In this document: in pieces, positions 26,378 to 35,597 of the stretch
Position numbering within the stretch: position 1 is the stretch's first letter
How the letters are laid out: every line of letters starts with the position of its first letter
IMG/VR virus record: IMGVR_UViG_3300017772_000044
Coordinates: 1-35,989 of that record
Source of the DNA: a virus
Reading direction: 5' to 3' (one strand)
DNA length: 35,989 nucleotides
Program-made: the position numbers and the translations under genes
Notes under the pieces: generated by a model
Databases searched by the model: none
Told to the model about the DNA's origin: nothing
The model's input: only the letters and a program-made list of their open reading frames with translations

Positions 26378-26646
26378 TACTTTTCTTCTGTGTATAAGCC
26401 AATTCTTCCTTCAAACTCCTGATCTACAAAATATTTTAAAAACCTTTGTTCAAACAAAAAGGAATGTATATCCTTATCATTCGCATATAAACCCATCCTA
26501 CCATCATCAAACTCAACAATGCAAGTGATACCAACTATATTCTTACTTTTGGTACTTAAAAATTTAATAACACTAGCAGAAGTCTTAGGCCCATCAGGAC
26601 TAAACTCTATATGTACTATGTTGTCTGGATCTTCTTCATCAGTCAT
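26377..26646 (-). CDS. Hypothetical protein, 89 aa
   Basis: Acidic N-terminus (MTDEEDPDN), then alternating beta/alpha character with FDDGRMGLYANDKD and FEGRIGLYTEEK, two related G-R-[MI]-G-L-Y segments about 43 residues apart. I do not recognise it. It sits between the terminase small and large subunit genes and is linked to the zinc-knuckle gene by TAATG. A packaging accessory is a guess from position. Confidence 0.65.
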   Translation of the reverse strand: MTDEEDPDNIVHIEFSPDGPKTSASVIKFLSTKSKNIVGITCIVEFDDGRMGLYANDKDIHSFLFEQRFLKYFVDQEFEGRIGLYTEEK

Positions 26647-26719
26647 AACGAACCTTTTTAAAAAATAATGTTAGTAAAGGTGAAGTAACATAACATCACG
26701 CTTGAGTTTTGACCCCCCC

Positions 26720-27103
26720 CTACGTTAAATCAATACTAATCTTTATATCACTATCAAGCCTAATATCGGCTCTATCTGGTGCTTTAAATCCAGCACGGTC
26801 TAGTAAATCCCTGGATGCTTCAAGCTGAACATACTCTGACTTAGCTCCGCCAGATAGAGACACTAACTTCTGAACAGCTTTAGCAGAGCCTAGACCAATA
26901 GCTTCTGCAGTACCTTTGAGTAAGGCTTGCTGTATGTGTGGAAGCTTAACCAATTTACTCGCCTGAACATGAGCTGAGTTCTCGCTGTATCCTGCCGTAA
27001 TGCAAGCCTGTTTACCATTGCCGCCATTGGCTAAGTAGTTATCTACAAAACTCTGCTGAAGCTGTGTCAGCGATTGGTTATTTGTACTGGGTACTTTAGA
27101 CAT
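26720..27103 (-). CDS. terS: Terminase small subunit, 127 aa
   Basis: The N-terminal two thirds match the Terminase_2 small-subunit family: LTQLQQSFVDNYLANGGNGK, then QACITAGYSENSAHVQASKLV, a DNA-binding helix-turn-helix that recognises the packaging site. The remainder is an oligomerisation-type helix (LEASRDLLDRAGF). It is the first packaging gene after a good minus-strand promoter (27156-27183) and a palindrome (27118-27142). The stop TAG is followed by a run of eight G, unusual in this genome. Confidence 0.9.
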   Translation of the reverse strand: MSKVPSTNNQSLTQLQQSFVDNYLANGGNGKQACITAGYSENSAHVQASKLVKLPHIQQALLKGTAEAIGLGSAKAVQKLVSLSGGAKSEYVQLEASRDLLDRAGFKAPDRADIRLDSDIKISIDLT

Positions 27104-27117
27104 ATGTTAACCTCAAA

Positions 27118-27142
27118 TTAAGTAATGAATCGTGTTACTTAA
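27118..27142. promoter_or_regulatory. Operator-like palindrome TTAAGTAA-N9-TTACTTAA
   Basis: A perfect 8-bp inverted repeat with a 9-base spacer lies between the minus-strand promoter at 27156-27183 and the terminase small subunit start at 27103. Its dimensions suit a dimeric repressor. Two DNA-binding candidates encoded here (30009-30422 and 32143-32424) could be the binder. It lacks a T-tract, so it is not a terminator. Confidence 0.55.
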
Positions 27143-27155
27143 AGAGTAGTGATAG

Positions 27156-27183
27156 ATTATAAATATGTCAATACAGTTATCAA
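27156..27183 (-). promoter_or_regulatory. Minus-strand sigma70-type promoter for the packaging/late genes
   Basis: On the minus strand TTGATA (27183-27178), a 16-base spacer and TATAAT (27161-27156) form a near-consensus promoter. Transcription would start near 27149, just before the palindrome at 27118-27142 and the terminase small subunit gene. No phage RNA polymerase is visible, so host sigma70 polymerase would read it. Confidence 0.6.
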
Positions 27184-27204
27184 CATATGCCTAAATATAT
27201 CTGT

Positions 27205-27390
27205 TCATAGTCCAGATAATGACAGAAGCACTAGACTTAGCATCGCTAAGATAAGTGCTGGTATTCTAATCCAGAGGGTTAATTCTTGTTTAAATGCGAT
27301 GTAAGTTACATAGCTTAGTATAGCGACTGCTAAGAAAAGAGTGCCTGTGATAAGAGCGTCTGCGATTTCATATTGTATCTGTATGTCCAT
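27205..27390 (-). CDS. Two-TM small membrane protein, 61 aa
   Basis: AAGGAG lies 6 bases before the ATG at 27390; an upstream in-frame start at 27417 would add nine residues without a ribosome-binding site and is not preferred. Two hydrophobic helices are clear at about residues 12-32 and 40-60, joined by a short charged loop (FKQELTLW). Size and topology fit a class II-like holin or a superinfection/host-membrane modulator. It is the gene nearest the control region on the minus strand, so it may be expressed early or constitutively. Confidence 0.7.
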   Translation of the reverse strand: MDIQIQYEIADALITGTLFLAVAILSYVTYIAFKQELTLWIRIPALILAMLSLVLLSLSGL

Positions 27391-27409
27391 AATATTCTCC
27401 TTAATATAC

Positions 27410-27425
27410 GCAATCAAAAGATTGC
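27410..27425. repeat. Perfect hairpin GCAATC-AAAA-GATTGC
   Basis: A 6-bp perfect stem with an AAAA loop lies just upstream of the ribosome-binding site of the two-TM protein gene on the minus strand. It is the first of a long series of hairpins in the intergenic control region. A 5'-leader role for the minus-strand gene is possible. Confidence 0.6.
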
Positions 27426-27429
27426 TTCA

Positions 27430-27499
27430 AATCTAAAAGTCAACAGTCTAGGTGCGGGCAGTCACGAAGTGACAACACGGCTGATTGACTTATTAGATT
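27430..27499. repeat. 19-bp imperfect inverted repeat with inner hairpin
   Basis: Bases 27430-27448 pair with 27479-27499 through three helices (7, 7 and 5 bp) separated by single-A bulges. Inside, GTCAC-GAA-GTGAC forms another hairpin (27461-27473). One T-G pair is a wobble on the plus strand. Each outer arm holds TTGACT reading away from the centre, one of which is the -35 of the promoter at 27485-27514. The element could be a DNA operator/cruciform or an RNA structure. Confidence 0.65.
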
Positions 27500-27514
27500 G
27501 GAGTAATCTATAAT
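27485..27514 (+). promoter_or_regulatory. Strong plus-strand sigma70 promoter
   Basis: TTGACT (27485-27490), an 18-base spacer and a perfect TATAAT (27509-27514). Transcription would start near 27521, followed within 20 bases by AGAGGAG and an ATG at 27538. The -35 lies within the right arm of the 27430-27499 inverted repeat, so occupancy or extrusion there would affect it. Confidence 0.75.
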
Positions 27515-27537
27515 TCCAGTAATATCCAGAGGAGATT

Positions 27538-27684
27538 ATGGGCTTACATGCAATGAAATCGCAAGAGCGATTAATCATTGCGCTCGCCGGTGTAACGACA
27601 GCGCTCACTCACGATGTTCGAAGCATAACAGCATTGTTATGCACGCGCCCAAGCGCGAACGAGTCGTGCCTTTTTAAGCAGTAG
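27538..27684 (+). CDS. Possible 48-aa leader minigene in the control region
   Basis: An ATG 4 bases after AGAGGAG and about 18 bases after the predicted start of a strong promoter opens a 48-codon frame (begins MGLHAMKSQE, ends NESCLFKQ). It has a hydrophobic alanine-rich segment and two cysteines. The DNA is more GC-rich than neighbouring genes and is filled with palindromes (27550-27581, 27623-27642, 27644-27657), so the transcript may instead work as a structured RNA with the reading frame incidental. No family is recognised. Confidence 0.4.
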   Translation: MGLHAMKSQERLIIALAGVTTALTHDVRSITALLCTRPSANESCLFKQ

Positions 27685-27724
27685 CTATATTGTATACGCC
27701 CATTTATATTGGTGCTGGCACGAC
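27550..27724. repeat. Cluster of four perfect or near-perfect hairpins
   Basis: 27550-27581: GCAATGA and AATCGC pair with GCGATT and TCATTGC around an AAGA loop. 27623-27642: GCATAACA-GCAT-TGTTATGC. 27644-27657: CGCGC-CCAA-GCGCG. The latter two are enclosed by CACGA/TCGTG (27610-27614 and 27664-27668), which is followed by CC and TTTTT and so could act as a plus-strand terminator. GTCGTGCC (27663-27670) can alternatively pair with GGCACGAC (27717-27724). This offers mutually exclusive folds, as in attenuators. No protein-coding explanation covers it all. Confidence 0.65.
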
Positions 27725-27794
27725 AAGTGGTCTCTGATGATACAGAACCCGTGGGCTATTTTTACTCTCGCACGCGAGGTAAAACATAGCATTA

Positions 27795-28018
27795 GTGTGT
27801 ATTCACACACGAATGTTCTGTTAACATTTAAACTTTTAGCATACACAAAATCAGAGATTTTGAGATGCAGTTTAAATGTTTACTGTGATTGCAAAAGCAA
27901 TTCACAGATGTTCTGTTTAAACTTTTCAAAGCAAACGAGAAACTGCACTTTGCAAAAGCAAAGCGCAGTCGCCGGGACACGGCGCTCGAAGAGTTTTGCT
28001 TTAAAAAGTTAGAACATC
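27795..28018. ncRNA. Candidate large structured RNA or cruciform array
   Basis: Consecutive hairpins fill this stretch. 27795-27810: GTGTGT-ATTC-ACACAC. 27820-27883: 14-base arms with one mismatch, enclosing GCAT/ATGC and CAAAATC-AGA-GATTTTG. 27883-27907: CTGTGATTGC with GCAATTCACAG. 27907-28018: a three-way junction closed by GATGTTCT/AGAACATC, AACTTTT/AAAAGTT, AAAGCAAA/TTTGCTTT and CGAG/CTCG, holding two inner hairpins (27942-27969; 27970-27984). Two mismatches in the last element become G-U pairs only on the minus strand. The reading frames here look like by-products of the symmetry. It may be a multi-domain noncoding RNA or part of a replication origin. Confidence 0.5.
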
Positions 28019-28092
28019 TACCGTGCACCTCGACCAATATTCTCATGAATAAATACCGTCTATATATACAGGGGGATTTTTATAAGTAATTT

Positions 28093-28122
28093 TTGACATG
28101 CGCTTAGCCTTGATTTTATTAT
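28093..28122 (+). promoter_or_regulatory. Main early plus-strand promoter
   Basis: A perfect -35 TTGACA (28093-28098), an 18-base spacer and TATTAT (28117-28122, one mismatch to consensus). Transcription from near 28129 would give a leader of about 260 nt before the first early gene at 28388. It is the best sigma70-type candidate for expression of the early operon by host RNA polymerase. Confidence 0.75.
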
Positions 28123-28148
28123 TATGTGCCACAGAATTTTTGTCCTCC

Positions 28149-28369
28149 TTGCCCGATGGGCAATATTATGCCTACGGAAATGTAGCGATTTGCTCAGTTG
28201 TATCAGGCGACAAGCACATTACATAATTCTAATGCCAAGCATTTGGCATTATAATTATTATTGTTCTGCCATTGTTCGACTTAATGCAACACCAAGTCCT
28301 TTGGTGTTCCCCTATGGTGCATTAAGTCGAATCACCTGATGCAATCCACAAATCCACAATTCCGTGGAT
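28149..28369 (+). promoter_or_regulatory. Structured 5' leader of the early operon
   Basis: Several stems follow one another. TTGCCC-GAT-GGGCAA (28149-28163). TAATT and TAATGCCAA pairing with TTGGCATTA and AATTA around a GCAT loop (28224-28257). A perfect 14-bp arm pair (28275-28288 with 28318-28331) enclosing ACACCAA/TTGGTGT. ATCCAC-AATTCC-GTGGAT (28352-28369) directly before the AAAGGAGG ribosome-binding site. The last could open or close the start of the first early gene. As DNA, the same stretch contains the DnaA-box-like cluster. Confidence 0.6.
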
Positions 28370-28371
28370 AA
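28342..28371. promoter_or_regulatory. Cluster of three DnaA-box-like 9-mers (origin candidate)
   Basis: Against TTATCCACA: CAATCCACA (28342-28350, 7 of 9), AAATCCACA (28350-28358, 7 of 9) and, on the opposite strand, TTATCCACG (28371-28363, 8 of 9). Three in 30 bases right before the first early gene is notable because the phage encodes a DnaA domain IV-like protein. Either that protein or host DnaA could bind. The adjacent AT-rich tract (28240-28262) could serve as an unwinding element. Confidence 0.45.
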
Positions 28372-28387
28372 TATAAAGGAGGCCAAA

Positions 28388-29029
28388 ATGGCACATAATA
28401 ATAAAATCGTACAGACTATCCTATCAAAAATTACTTATAAAAATCACATAGATAGAGAAGGAATTATTAATGGAGAATATAGAAATGATGATACGGGAGA
28501 GGTTACACCTCGCACGTATTACACAGGATTCTTCATGGTGAAGGAGATGATAGAAGCACATCGTAAGATGGTGCGTACAGCATCTAAAAGATATACATCT
28601 TTATCTAAAGATTTCGAAAAGGAATCTGCACCTTACCGCAAAGGCGGTAAGCTTGAGGTCGGAGTTCTTCTACCAAAGAAAGCAACAAGATACCAACATG
28701 ATTTGATTACTGAGTCAAACAAACTCAAGTATCTTTCCGACCTCCAAAAAGAGCTCGATGAAGCCATCGAGTTCTTTGGTGGATTAAGAGAGGATGCACA
28801 CTACGATGTTATTGCATCTGACCTTGACGAAAGACTAACAGGTAAAAGGAAAGTTAAGGTTATAACACCTCAAGTACCTACTGAAAAGTTTAGTAAGTCA
28901 GATGCAAAAGAACTTGATGAAGCTTTGGATTTAGCTAAAGAGTTCTATGCTGAAGAGGTTAATGTTAATCCGATTAACAATGACCAGACAGAAGTCAGTA
29001 CTGAAGCAAATCAAGAAGAGGTTTACTAA
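28388..29029 (+). CDS. First early protein, unknown function, 213 aa
   Basis: The start is fixed by AAAGGAGG 5 bases upstream; a GTG at 28364 that would add eight residues lies inside the leader hairpin and is rejected. The protein is highly charged and helical: a basic first half (AHRKMVRTASKRY), a coiled-coil-like section (about residues 110-135, KLKYLSDLQKELDEAIEFF) and an acidic C-terminus (FYAEEVNVN, EANQEEVY). I recognise no family. Being first after the main early promoter and followed by a strong terminator, it is probably made in large amounts. A host-takeover or DNA-binding role is possible. Confidence 0.85.
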   Translation: MAHNNKIVQTILSKITYKNHIDREGIINGEYRNDDTGEVTPRTYYTGFFMVKEMIEAHRKMVRTASKRYTSLSKDFEKESAPYRKGGKLEVGVLLPKKATRYQHDLITESNKLKYLSDLQKELDEAIEFFGGLREDAHYDVIASDLDERLTGKRKVKVITPQVPTEKFSKSDAKELDEALDLAKEFYAEEVNVNPINNDQTEVSTEANQEEVY

Positions 29030-29038
29030 GACCTCTTC
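29015..29038 (+). repeat. Inverted repeat GAAGAGGT / ACCTCTTC
   Basis: A perfect 8-bp stem with an 8-base loop that contains the stop codon of the first early gene. It abuts the terminator at 29039, so tandem hairpins close this transcript; the first may protect the mRNA 3' end or interfere with translation termination. Confidence 0.6.
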
Positions 29039-29071
29039 AGCCTCAGCTCCTTGCGGAGCTGGGGCTTTTTT
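29039..29071 (+). terminator. Strong rho-independent terminator after the first early gene
   Basis: AGCCTCAGCTCC pairs with GGAGCTGGGGCT (12 bp, one T-G pair that is a wobble only in plus-strand RNA) around TTGC, followed by six T. It separates the first early gene from the rest of the plus-strand genes, making that gene a monocistronic, probably abundant message. Confidence 0.92.
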
Positions 29072-29169
29072 GTTGTTCATCTGGTGAAGAACAGGAGCAC
29101 GTTGCTATGCCAACGGCGACCCTCTCCCCTGGGTAAAAGCCAGCTTTTGTAATCACTAGGTGAACAACA
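29071..29169 (+). ncRNA. Candidate structured RNA element closed by a 17-bp helix
   Basis: TGTTGTTCATCTGGTGA (29071-29087) pairs with TCACTAGGTGAACAACA (29153-29169) over 17 bp. Two of these are U-G/G-U wobbles on the plus strand and would be A-C clashes on the minus strand. Inside are CGTTG-CTATGC-CAACG, CAGGAG against CTCCCCTG with a bulge, and AAAAG-CCAG-CTTTT. No open reading frame fits. It lies between a terminator and the next gene, so it is either an independent small RNA or a cis-regulator of the 29207 operon. I do not recognise a known class; it is not a tRNA. Confidence 0.6.
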
Positions 29170-29206
29170 GAAAAAAATTATTAAATATTAACAACAGGAG
29201 AACACA

Positions 29207-34413: not shown

Positions 34414-34829
34414 GTTACTCAGGTACACTTGCAACAACAGAACTAATAGGAAATCTAGGGAATGATCCAGAGATTAAAGAAACAAACAACGGTAAGAAGT
34501 ATGCCGTACTTTCTATAGCAACAAAGATTAAGACTGGTGCTAATGATGAAGAAACATTATGGCATAGAGTAGTAGTCTGGAATGAAAGCACAATAGATAA
34601 ATATATAATTCCATATATAAAGAAAGGTGCTAAGCTATACATTAAAGGAGATCTTAAGTACTATAAGATGGACACAGATGATGGTAAAACAATTAAGATG
34701 TATAGTGTTGAGCTGTCATTTGGTGGAGAGATTATGATTCTTGACAAAAAATCTGACGCAAACACAGACACGTCTGCATCAGCACCAGCTATAGAATCAA
34801 AGAAACATGATAGTGATATACCGTTCTAA
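34410..34829 (+). CDS. ssb: Single-stranded DNA-binding protein, 139 aa
   Basis: An OB-fold SSB: LIGNLGNDPEIKETNNGKKY at the start, LWHRVVVWNES in the middle, IKKGAKLYIKGDLKYYKM later, a disordered S/T/A/D linker, and the C-terminal tip DSDIPF. That tip closely resembles the bacterial SSB tail (D-D-I-P-F) that docks host replication and repair proteins, so this SSB may recruit the host replisome. Two hairpins follow the gene, the second a terminator. Confidence 0.95.
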   Translation: MSYSGTLATTELIGNLGNDPEIKETNNGKKYAVLSIATKIKTGANDEETLWHRVVVWNESTIDKYIIPYIKKGAKLYIKGDLKYYKMDTDDGKTIKMYSVELSFGGEIMILDKKSDANTDTSASAPAIESKKHDSDIPF

Positions 34830-34830
34830 G

Positions 34831-34869
34831 GACTGATAACACTCCATTAAACTTATAAGGTTATCAGTC
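34831..34869 (+). repeat. Hairpin GACTGATAAC / GTTATCAGTC after ssb
   Basis: A perfect 10-bp stem with a 19-base loop, two bases after the SSB stop codon. No T-tract follows. It may stabilise the mRNA 3' end or act with the terminator 25 bases downstream. Confidence 0.65.
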
Positions 34870-34892
34870 TATCATTGTGTCTTAGAAGTTAT

Positions 34893-34933
34893 TAACCAGA
34901 GATTTCGTAACGGCGATCTCTGGTTATTTTTTT
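34893..34933 (+). terminator. Rho-independent terminator after ssb
   Basis: TAACCAGAGAT (34893-34903) pairs with ATCTCTGGTTA (34916-34926), an 11-bp stem with a 12-base loop, followed by seven T. It closes the main plus-strand operon and separates the DnaA-like gene, which would need readthrough or its own promoter. Confidence 0.9.
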
Positions 34934-34976
34934 AGTGCGTACCAAAAAAAAATATAAATGTTATAAAGGAAATCTT

Positions 34977-35597
34977 ATGTTCAAAAACAAATCACTTAAC
35001 AAAATTATCAATAAAGTATTAGAAGATAACAATACTTCATGGGATGAAATCAAAAGCTCAAGACGTACCGAAGGTATAGTCAACGCTAGATTTATATCCT
35101 ATTACTTATCAAGAAAATTTACTAACCTATCTTACACACAGATAGGACACAAGTTTAACAAAGATCATTCAACTATAATGCATGGTTGTAAGAAAGCAGA
35201 AGCGTTAGATAAAAATATTCTTACTTCTTATGTGGATCTTTACCATACTTATCTTGAAGATATAAAAGAAAGTCGTGACCTTCTTGAGGATTCTCAAAGA
35301 AATTCTGTTTTGACTCTGATGAAGAGTATGGATCAATCACTTGCAGTATTGATTGACCATGTTTCTGCTGAGAAAACCCTTTCTCAACAGCATACTGATC
35401 GTAATCTTTATATCCTTTTAACCGAACTAACGAAGCAACTTTCCCATTTCGTTGTTCTATTTTCTGGATTGCCCAGTTATGACGATGACCAGCAATATAC
35501 AGATCAGCATCACTATTCCAAAGAGAAGCTTTCATCTGAGCATGAAGAGGATTATACTGAGAGTGACCTGGAAAATCGTGACGAGAATCTACACTAA
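34977..35597 (+). CDS. DnaA domain IV-like DNA-binding protein, 206 aa
   Basis: AAAGGA lies 6 bases before this ATG; a GTG at 34935 sits right on the terminator T-tract and is rejected. Residues about 28-78 match DnaA domain IV, which reads DnaA boxes: R30, ARFISYYLSRKFTNLSYTQI (37-56), G57, then the signature D63-H-S-T-I-M-H-G-C-K-K (63-73; bacterial D-H-[TS]-T-[VI]-x-H-A-x-[RK]-K). No AAA+ ATPase is present, so it can bind but not open DNA. The last about 125 residues run antisense to the metallophosphoesterase and may be nonconserved filler. It probably competes with, recruits or mimics host DnaA. Confidence 0.8.
   Translation: MFKNKSLNKIINKVLEDNNTSWDEIKSSRRTEGIVNARFISYYLSRKFTNLSYTQIGHKFNKDHSTIMHGCKKAEALDKNILTSYVDLYHTYLEDIKESRDLLEDSQRNSVLTLMKSMDQSLAVLIDHVSAEKTLSQQHTDRNLYILLTELTKQLSHFVVLFSGLPSYDDDQQYTDQHHYSKEKLSSEHEEDYTESDLENRDENLH

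Follow-up and report, generated by a model that had tools for sequence, protein, structure and literature searches.

The window, that is, the whole stretch of 35,989 nt analysed here, is the complete genome of a marine podovirus-like phage and has a terminal repeat of 120 nt. Its large terminase shares 66% identity with that of the cultured Pelagibacter phage EXVC031P Hodr. Leftward late genes run from 27.4 kb and rightward early genes from 28.4 kb, with a palindrome-rich region between them (27405-28387; Table 1). The 62-aa gene at its left edge is intact in a relative (L088); neither this gene nor the first long early gene found a match in Pfam and PHROG searches. A short ORF inside the region is doubtful as coding sequence, because another relative, L095, keeps just its start.

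Table 1. Features of the palindrome-rich region and its flanks (window positions).
Feature	Position	Strand	Remarks
Terminase small subunit (terS)	26720..27103	-	Pfam Terminase_2, E 7e-14; next leftward gene after the 62-aa gene
62-aa gene	27205..27393	-	hydrophobic, probably two membrane helices; Shine-Dalgarno AAGGAG
5' arm of fold-back hairpin	27419..27443	+	sequence, inverted repeat, DNA fold
Core module	27444..27483	+	P1, TAGGTGCGGGCA, P3 hairpin, AACACGG; covariation
P1 stem	27444-27448/27479-27483	+	part of core module
Core loop strand TAGGTGCGGGCA	27449-27460	+	part of core module
P3 hairpin GTCAC-GAA-GTGAC	27461-27473	+	part of core module
AACACGG	27474-27480	+	part of core module
TTGACT, -35-like	27485..27490	+	3' arm; promoter scan 11/12 together with TATAAT
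TATAAT, -10-like	27509..27514	+	18 nt after TTGACT; promoter scan
Short ORF, 48 codons, with Shine-Dalgarno	27538..27684	+	directly right of conserved hairpin
Hairpin-rich hypervariable cassette	27561..28352		replaced in L095
Inverted, truncated copy of early gene's ribosome-binding site and start	28037..28150	-	75% inverted repeat with 28376-28480
First long early gene, 213 aa	28388..29029	+	rightward

The stems and palindromes that the earlier note on this DNA had listed are real: all can be read in the sequence where it placed them, and most were recovered by a repeat search. Long palindromes (arms of at least 12 nt, spaced at most 60) number 4 in the 983 bases of the region; the 27,000 bases on its left side have 15. 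Folded as RNA, the region has z-scores of -18.0 (+ strand) and -13.8 (- strand), equalled by none of 20 shuffles per strand; in a DNA-fold scan of the whole window (200-nt sliding), the mean z is -5.36 inside the region and -0.47 (sd 1.47) outside. Local GC reaches 46-48%, compared with roughly 32-46% around it. The note had recognised no known class here, and the Rfam search that it proposed agrees: nothing in the region reached the gathering threshold, and the weak matches below it (E<=10) include none that is credible. A blastn search with the whole region against phages gave zero homologs, short-query blastn in named phages gave chance matches alone, and a literature search for the core string returned unrelated papers. 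The region is in fact two things, a conserved module at its left end and a non-conserved hairpin cassette.

The cassette is best seen by comparison with close relatives. L095 is 99.2% identical to the window over 26601-27560 and then unrelated up to 28353; since it diverges outright beside such identity, 27561-28352 is a replaceable cassette. Its counterpart in L095 (6377-6907) is unrelated but equally hairpin-rich. The relative L004 is about 98% identical to the window, with a 64-nt hairpin inserted near 27589; this insertion (at about 1648-1711 of L004) is largely one new hairpin (GGTGCTAAGATATTAGCACC). Of the positions in the cassette 70% are paired, yet 10 of the 16 substitutions that separate window and L004 there are at unpaired ones; two of the substitutions form one compensatory pair. 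Pairing is probably maintained. The cassette is strongly hairpin-rich in 13 of 14 phage contigs (the exception is L091), and across the 14 homologous cassettes fold stability has no consistent strand preference. This 0.8-kb stretch is a separate, fast-evolving part rather than a conserved large RNA; its behaviour suggests that the early region opens with a module of fast turnover.

The conserved module (27405-27545) has the order stem, GGTGCGGGCA, hairpin, AACACGG, stem; its 3' arm carries TTGACT and TATAAT. By DNA folding it folds on both strands. On the 5' arm, AGTCAA (27438-27443) pairs with the -35-like TTGACT; TATAAT in the folded strand mostly faces an unpaired stretch of the same arm. 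The exact core occurs in 14 viral contigs, 13 of them with homologous phage gaps and one (L094) apparently by chance, and the arrangement GGTGCGGGCAG-hairpin-CAACACGGC within a longer stem is found at the same place in 13 other phage contigs. In related phages, including the cultured Pelagibacter phage Hodr, the module invariably lies in the gap upstream of terS. P1 and P3 vary in sequence across the phage contigs and keep their pairing: the stem covariation score of the phage set is 0.200, compared with 0.089 for shuffled alignments (0 of 500 shuffles). Among the things that the earlier note said would refute its proposal were stems lost, not compensated, in related phages; in the conserved part, compensatory changes are seen and the stems covary.

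Some phages (Hodr, L048, L058, L213, and L116) carry a circularly permuted form, stem-AACACGG-hairpin-GGWGCGGGCA-stem, which has the same two loop strands in the other order. Covarying stems and a permutable internal loop are properties of a folded single strand, whether RNA or DNA, and not those of a duplex binding site. The module's role is not uniform across phages, because the gene served differs: in Hodr-type phages it is the first early gene that lies in the fold-back direction, while in the window's clade it is the small membrane-protein gene and terS. At the right end of the intergenic region, L006, L007, and L010 have a second conserved hairpin, GATTCGTTGGG...CACCAAACAAGCC...GGTTTGTTTGGT...CGAATC, before the early gene; it is not recognisable in the window. 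No second copy of the core was found near the early gene, either in the window (allowing up to 2 mismatches) or, by eye, in L006.

The permuted form is also present in many bacterial genomes, including about 3-8% of the alphaproteobacterial genomes sampled. A covariance model (R1) was built from 20 members of this form, whose stems have a covariation score of 0.644 compared with 0.187 when shuffled (0 of 500 shuffles). In the alphaproteobacterial class that contains G002, R1 matched 7 of 190 genomes drawn; the figures are 26 of 298 for the family to which G004 belongs and 23 of 298 for the order to which G001 belongs, these samples including the centre genomes themselves. Matches are often clustered, with 2-4 copies on the same strand. 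Among terminase-bearing loci it matched 3 of 81; many of the 81 are fragments without the gap, and phages of the window's own clade have the non-permuted form. The non-permuted core was found in unannotated gaps of Sphingomonas, Sphingopyxis, Burkholderia, and Paraburkholderia plasmids; exact-pattern scans also give chance matches, and those kept are closed by a stem of 4-5 pairs. Rfam gave no family match for the bacterial members, and nothing credible.

In alpha- and betaproteobacterial conjugative plasmids, the module lies upstream of ssb and other leading-region genes. SSB is the first gene after it in two plasmids; other served genes encode ArdC, an ArdA-like protein, and DUF2958, and inspection by eye adds ParB-like proteins and methyltransferases. 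Two plasmids, pBMUL01 and one of Sphingopyxis, have the module among co-oriented genes leading to a T4CP-MobF relaxase operon, the same gene arrangement as in the F plasmid leading region. The plasmid members thus lie in the leading region, upstream of ssb and anti-defence genes for which the folding strand is the template, the position of oriT being judged from the T4CP-relaxase operon; this applies to the plasmids, the window being a phage without a leading region.

The geometry of the module is also constrained, as judged from the bacterial members, from which the placement statistics derive. In the permuted form, TTG begins 5 nt past GGGCA, right after the stem, in 33 of 34 members (TAG in the other) and in 30/30 of a hold-out set; the bases pairing with TTG are more variable than TTG itself. 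Conservation of the -10 across the plasmid set is weak; in the window, this box reads TATAAT. The nearest gene starts leftward on the opposite strand, in most permuted members 63-99 nt away. In the hold-out set, 23 of 30 have a minus-strand gene start led by a Shine-Dalgarno sequence 77-103 nt to the left, compared with a random rate of 3.2% (p 9e-29, ignoring relatedness; one hold-out member duplicates a training sequence). The motif strand is thus the template for the served gene. The distance is less constant for non-permuted members: 58-66 nt in the window's clade and about 110-295 nt in plasmids. Since G-T wobble pairs in the stems exceed A-C pairs (51 vs. 27, p 0.009, again ignoring relatedness), the motif strand appears to be the one that folds.

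These properties recall the single-stranded DNA promoters of conjugative plasmids. In the F plasmid, Frpo1 and Frpo2 lie upstream of leading genes including ssbF and are active from single-stranded DNA (PMC9849209): the transferred strand folds, the -35 and -10 come from its 3' arm, and the template consists of the 5' arm with what lies beyond (PMC9849209, PMC11541004, PMC7736820). Frpo transcripts prime synthesis as well (PMC7736820). Like Frpo1, Frpo2, and the ssi of ColIb-P9, the module is a long, imperfectly paired hairpin that fills the gap preceding ssb or other leading-region genes, has its -35 in the stem and the served gene on the complement of the folding strand, and occurs in several copies per element on the same strand. 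Unlike them, it has a conserved GGTGCGGGCA/AACACGG internal loop in two circular permutations, and it is found in alpha- and betaproteobacterial plasmids and in tailed phages, where activity from single-stranded DNA is a prediction. Compared by blastn, the F Frpo1/2 gaps matched none of the members even at E 0.01, and the core is absent from the F leading region; by the published BLAST criterion for Frpo/ssi sites (E<1e-6; PMC11541004), homology is thus lacking. As Frpo1/2 share no sequence with it, the module is kept out of the Frpo sequence family and likened to it in its predicted way of working. Single-stranded DNA promoters were shown experimentally in F- and ColIb-type enterobacterial plasmids, and large surveys extended the list through BLAST with the known sequences and through searches for -35/-10 boxes (PMC11541004, PMC12826799); having no homology to the known ones, the module would be missed by such BLAST-based surveys. 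The early promoters of phage N4 are hairpins, short and with a tri-nucleotide loop, used by the virion RNA polymerase. The module is likewise a hairpin-shaped candidate promoter in a phage genome, but no virion polymerase was identified here and its boxes are sigma-70-like.

The module is best read as a fold-back element of a tailed phage, Frpo-like and serving as promoter or priming site, with its function in the phage predicted from the plasmid comparison. That 27405-27545 is a fold-back promoter module active when the + strand is single-stranded seems to us somewhat better than an even bet (a probability of roughly 0.55), given its conservation, covariation, and permutation, the fixed -35, the fixed gene distance on the complementary strand, and the plasmid leading-region placement. 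When single-stranded, the + strand would fold on itself, with the GGTGCGGGCA/AACACGG internal loop capping or interrupting the stem and the 3' arm supplying TTGACT and TATAAT, the latter near an unpaired bubble. RNA polymerase would then use the 5' arm, and the sequence left of it, as its template, perhaps starting near 27407 and giving a leader of some 15 nt, with AAGGAG, before the minus-strand gene that begins at 27393. The same transcript could serve as a primer for second-strand DNA synthesis, as at plasmid Frpo/ssi sites. In duplex DNA, the same -35 and -10 would fire rightward, toward the early genes. The proposal thus supposes that RNA polymerase would use the folded strand, that some stage of the phage would supply single-stranded DNA, and that priming might occur. 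Against it, tailed phages inject duplex DNA; also, the right arm is a near-consensus duplex promoter, so that TTGACT and TATAAT are explicable by a plain rightward early promoter with no folding. The missing homology to F Frpo1/2, the weak -10 of the plasmid set, the uneven role among phages, the low R1 count at terminase-bearing loci, and a wobble-pair test that ignores relatedness also count against it. The role in the phage may be priming, a switch of direction, or simply that of a duplex promoter.

More tentatively, the phage and plasmid members may form a single, previously undescribed class of single-stranded DNA promoter or priming element, common to tailed double-stranded-DNA phages (SAR11-type and those of other marine hosts) and alpha- and betaproteobacterial conjugative plasmids. 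The permutable internal loop would define this class, which phages might use to switch transcription direction or for priming when their DNA is single-stranded. A promoter active on single-stranded DNA would be new for a double-stranded-DNA phage, and finding the module beside terS in tailed phages raises the question of when phage DNA is single-stranded enough for transcription or priming. In alpha- and betaproteobacterial plasmids and integrated elements, the module marks candidate early-expressed, often anti-defence, genes, and the covariance model is available for finding more members.

Two other readings of the module deserve consideration. One is a structured RNA, perhaps riboswitch- or protein-binding-like, in the 5' leader of the minus-strand genes and read from the other strand: the element stands 60-100 nt upstream of start codons and has covarying stems, as many leader RNAs do. 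It is quite unlikely, as the wobble pairs favour the motif strand over the mRNA strand, TTGA is conserved on the opposite strand to the mRNA, no Rfam family matches, and the served genes have their location in common, not a pathway. A function in duplex DNA only is unlikely too; the palindromes would then form cruciforms to which an initiator binds, in a replication origin or a bidirectional promoter region. The minimum of cumulative GC skew, at 27,053, lies beside the conserved hairpin, as does terS, the phage encodes an SSB and a protein with a DnaA C-terminal domain, TTGACT-18-TATAAT is near consensus, and both strands fold; but GC skew here tracks gene strand, the same module occurs in plasmid leading regions away from a known vegetative origin, and a duplex-binding protein needs neither covarying hairpins of varying sequence nor circular permutation. 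The earlier note had offered an origin or packaging region with extrudable cruciforms. The part of this that lies closer is a set of single-stranded or extrudable hairpins tied to replication or control, since one 140-bp part is a conserved covarying hairpin and has plasmid relatives with the placement and geometry of single-stranded DNA promoters.

The other explanation in that note, one large ornate noncoding RNA across the whole kilobase, is now very improbable. The region is like GOLLD and ROOL in being a large, hairpin-rich phage intergenic region, its + strand fold z is extreme, and the changes between window and L004 fall mostly in loops, with one pair compensated. Unlike them, it has no Rfam match, no RNA conserved across relatives, and no strand bias: most of the kilobase is unconserved and swapped between near-identical phages, the 0.8-kb part is not homologous even between close relatives, the strand preference is inconsistent, and inserts such as the L004 hairpin are tolerated. 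Having neither conservation nor strand bias, a large structured RNA was rejected.

The earlier list of stems did not include the 114-nt inverted repeat between 28037-28150 and 28376-28480. In its left arm, the start of the early gene is present in inverted form (encoding MAHNNKIKAKRMSKITYKN...); some 225 bp of hairpins separate this copy from the intact gene that it faces, and the two arms have sigma-70-like promoter matches on opposite strands. The first long early gene has an unusually hairpin-rich coding sequence (z -7.9 and -5.6, within 28601-29200), and another folding peak (z -6.2) lies at 34801-35000, just ahead of the gene with the DnaA C-terminal domain.
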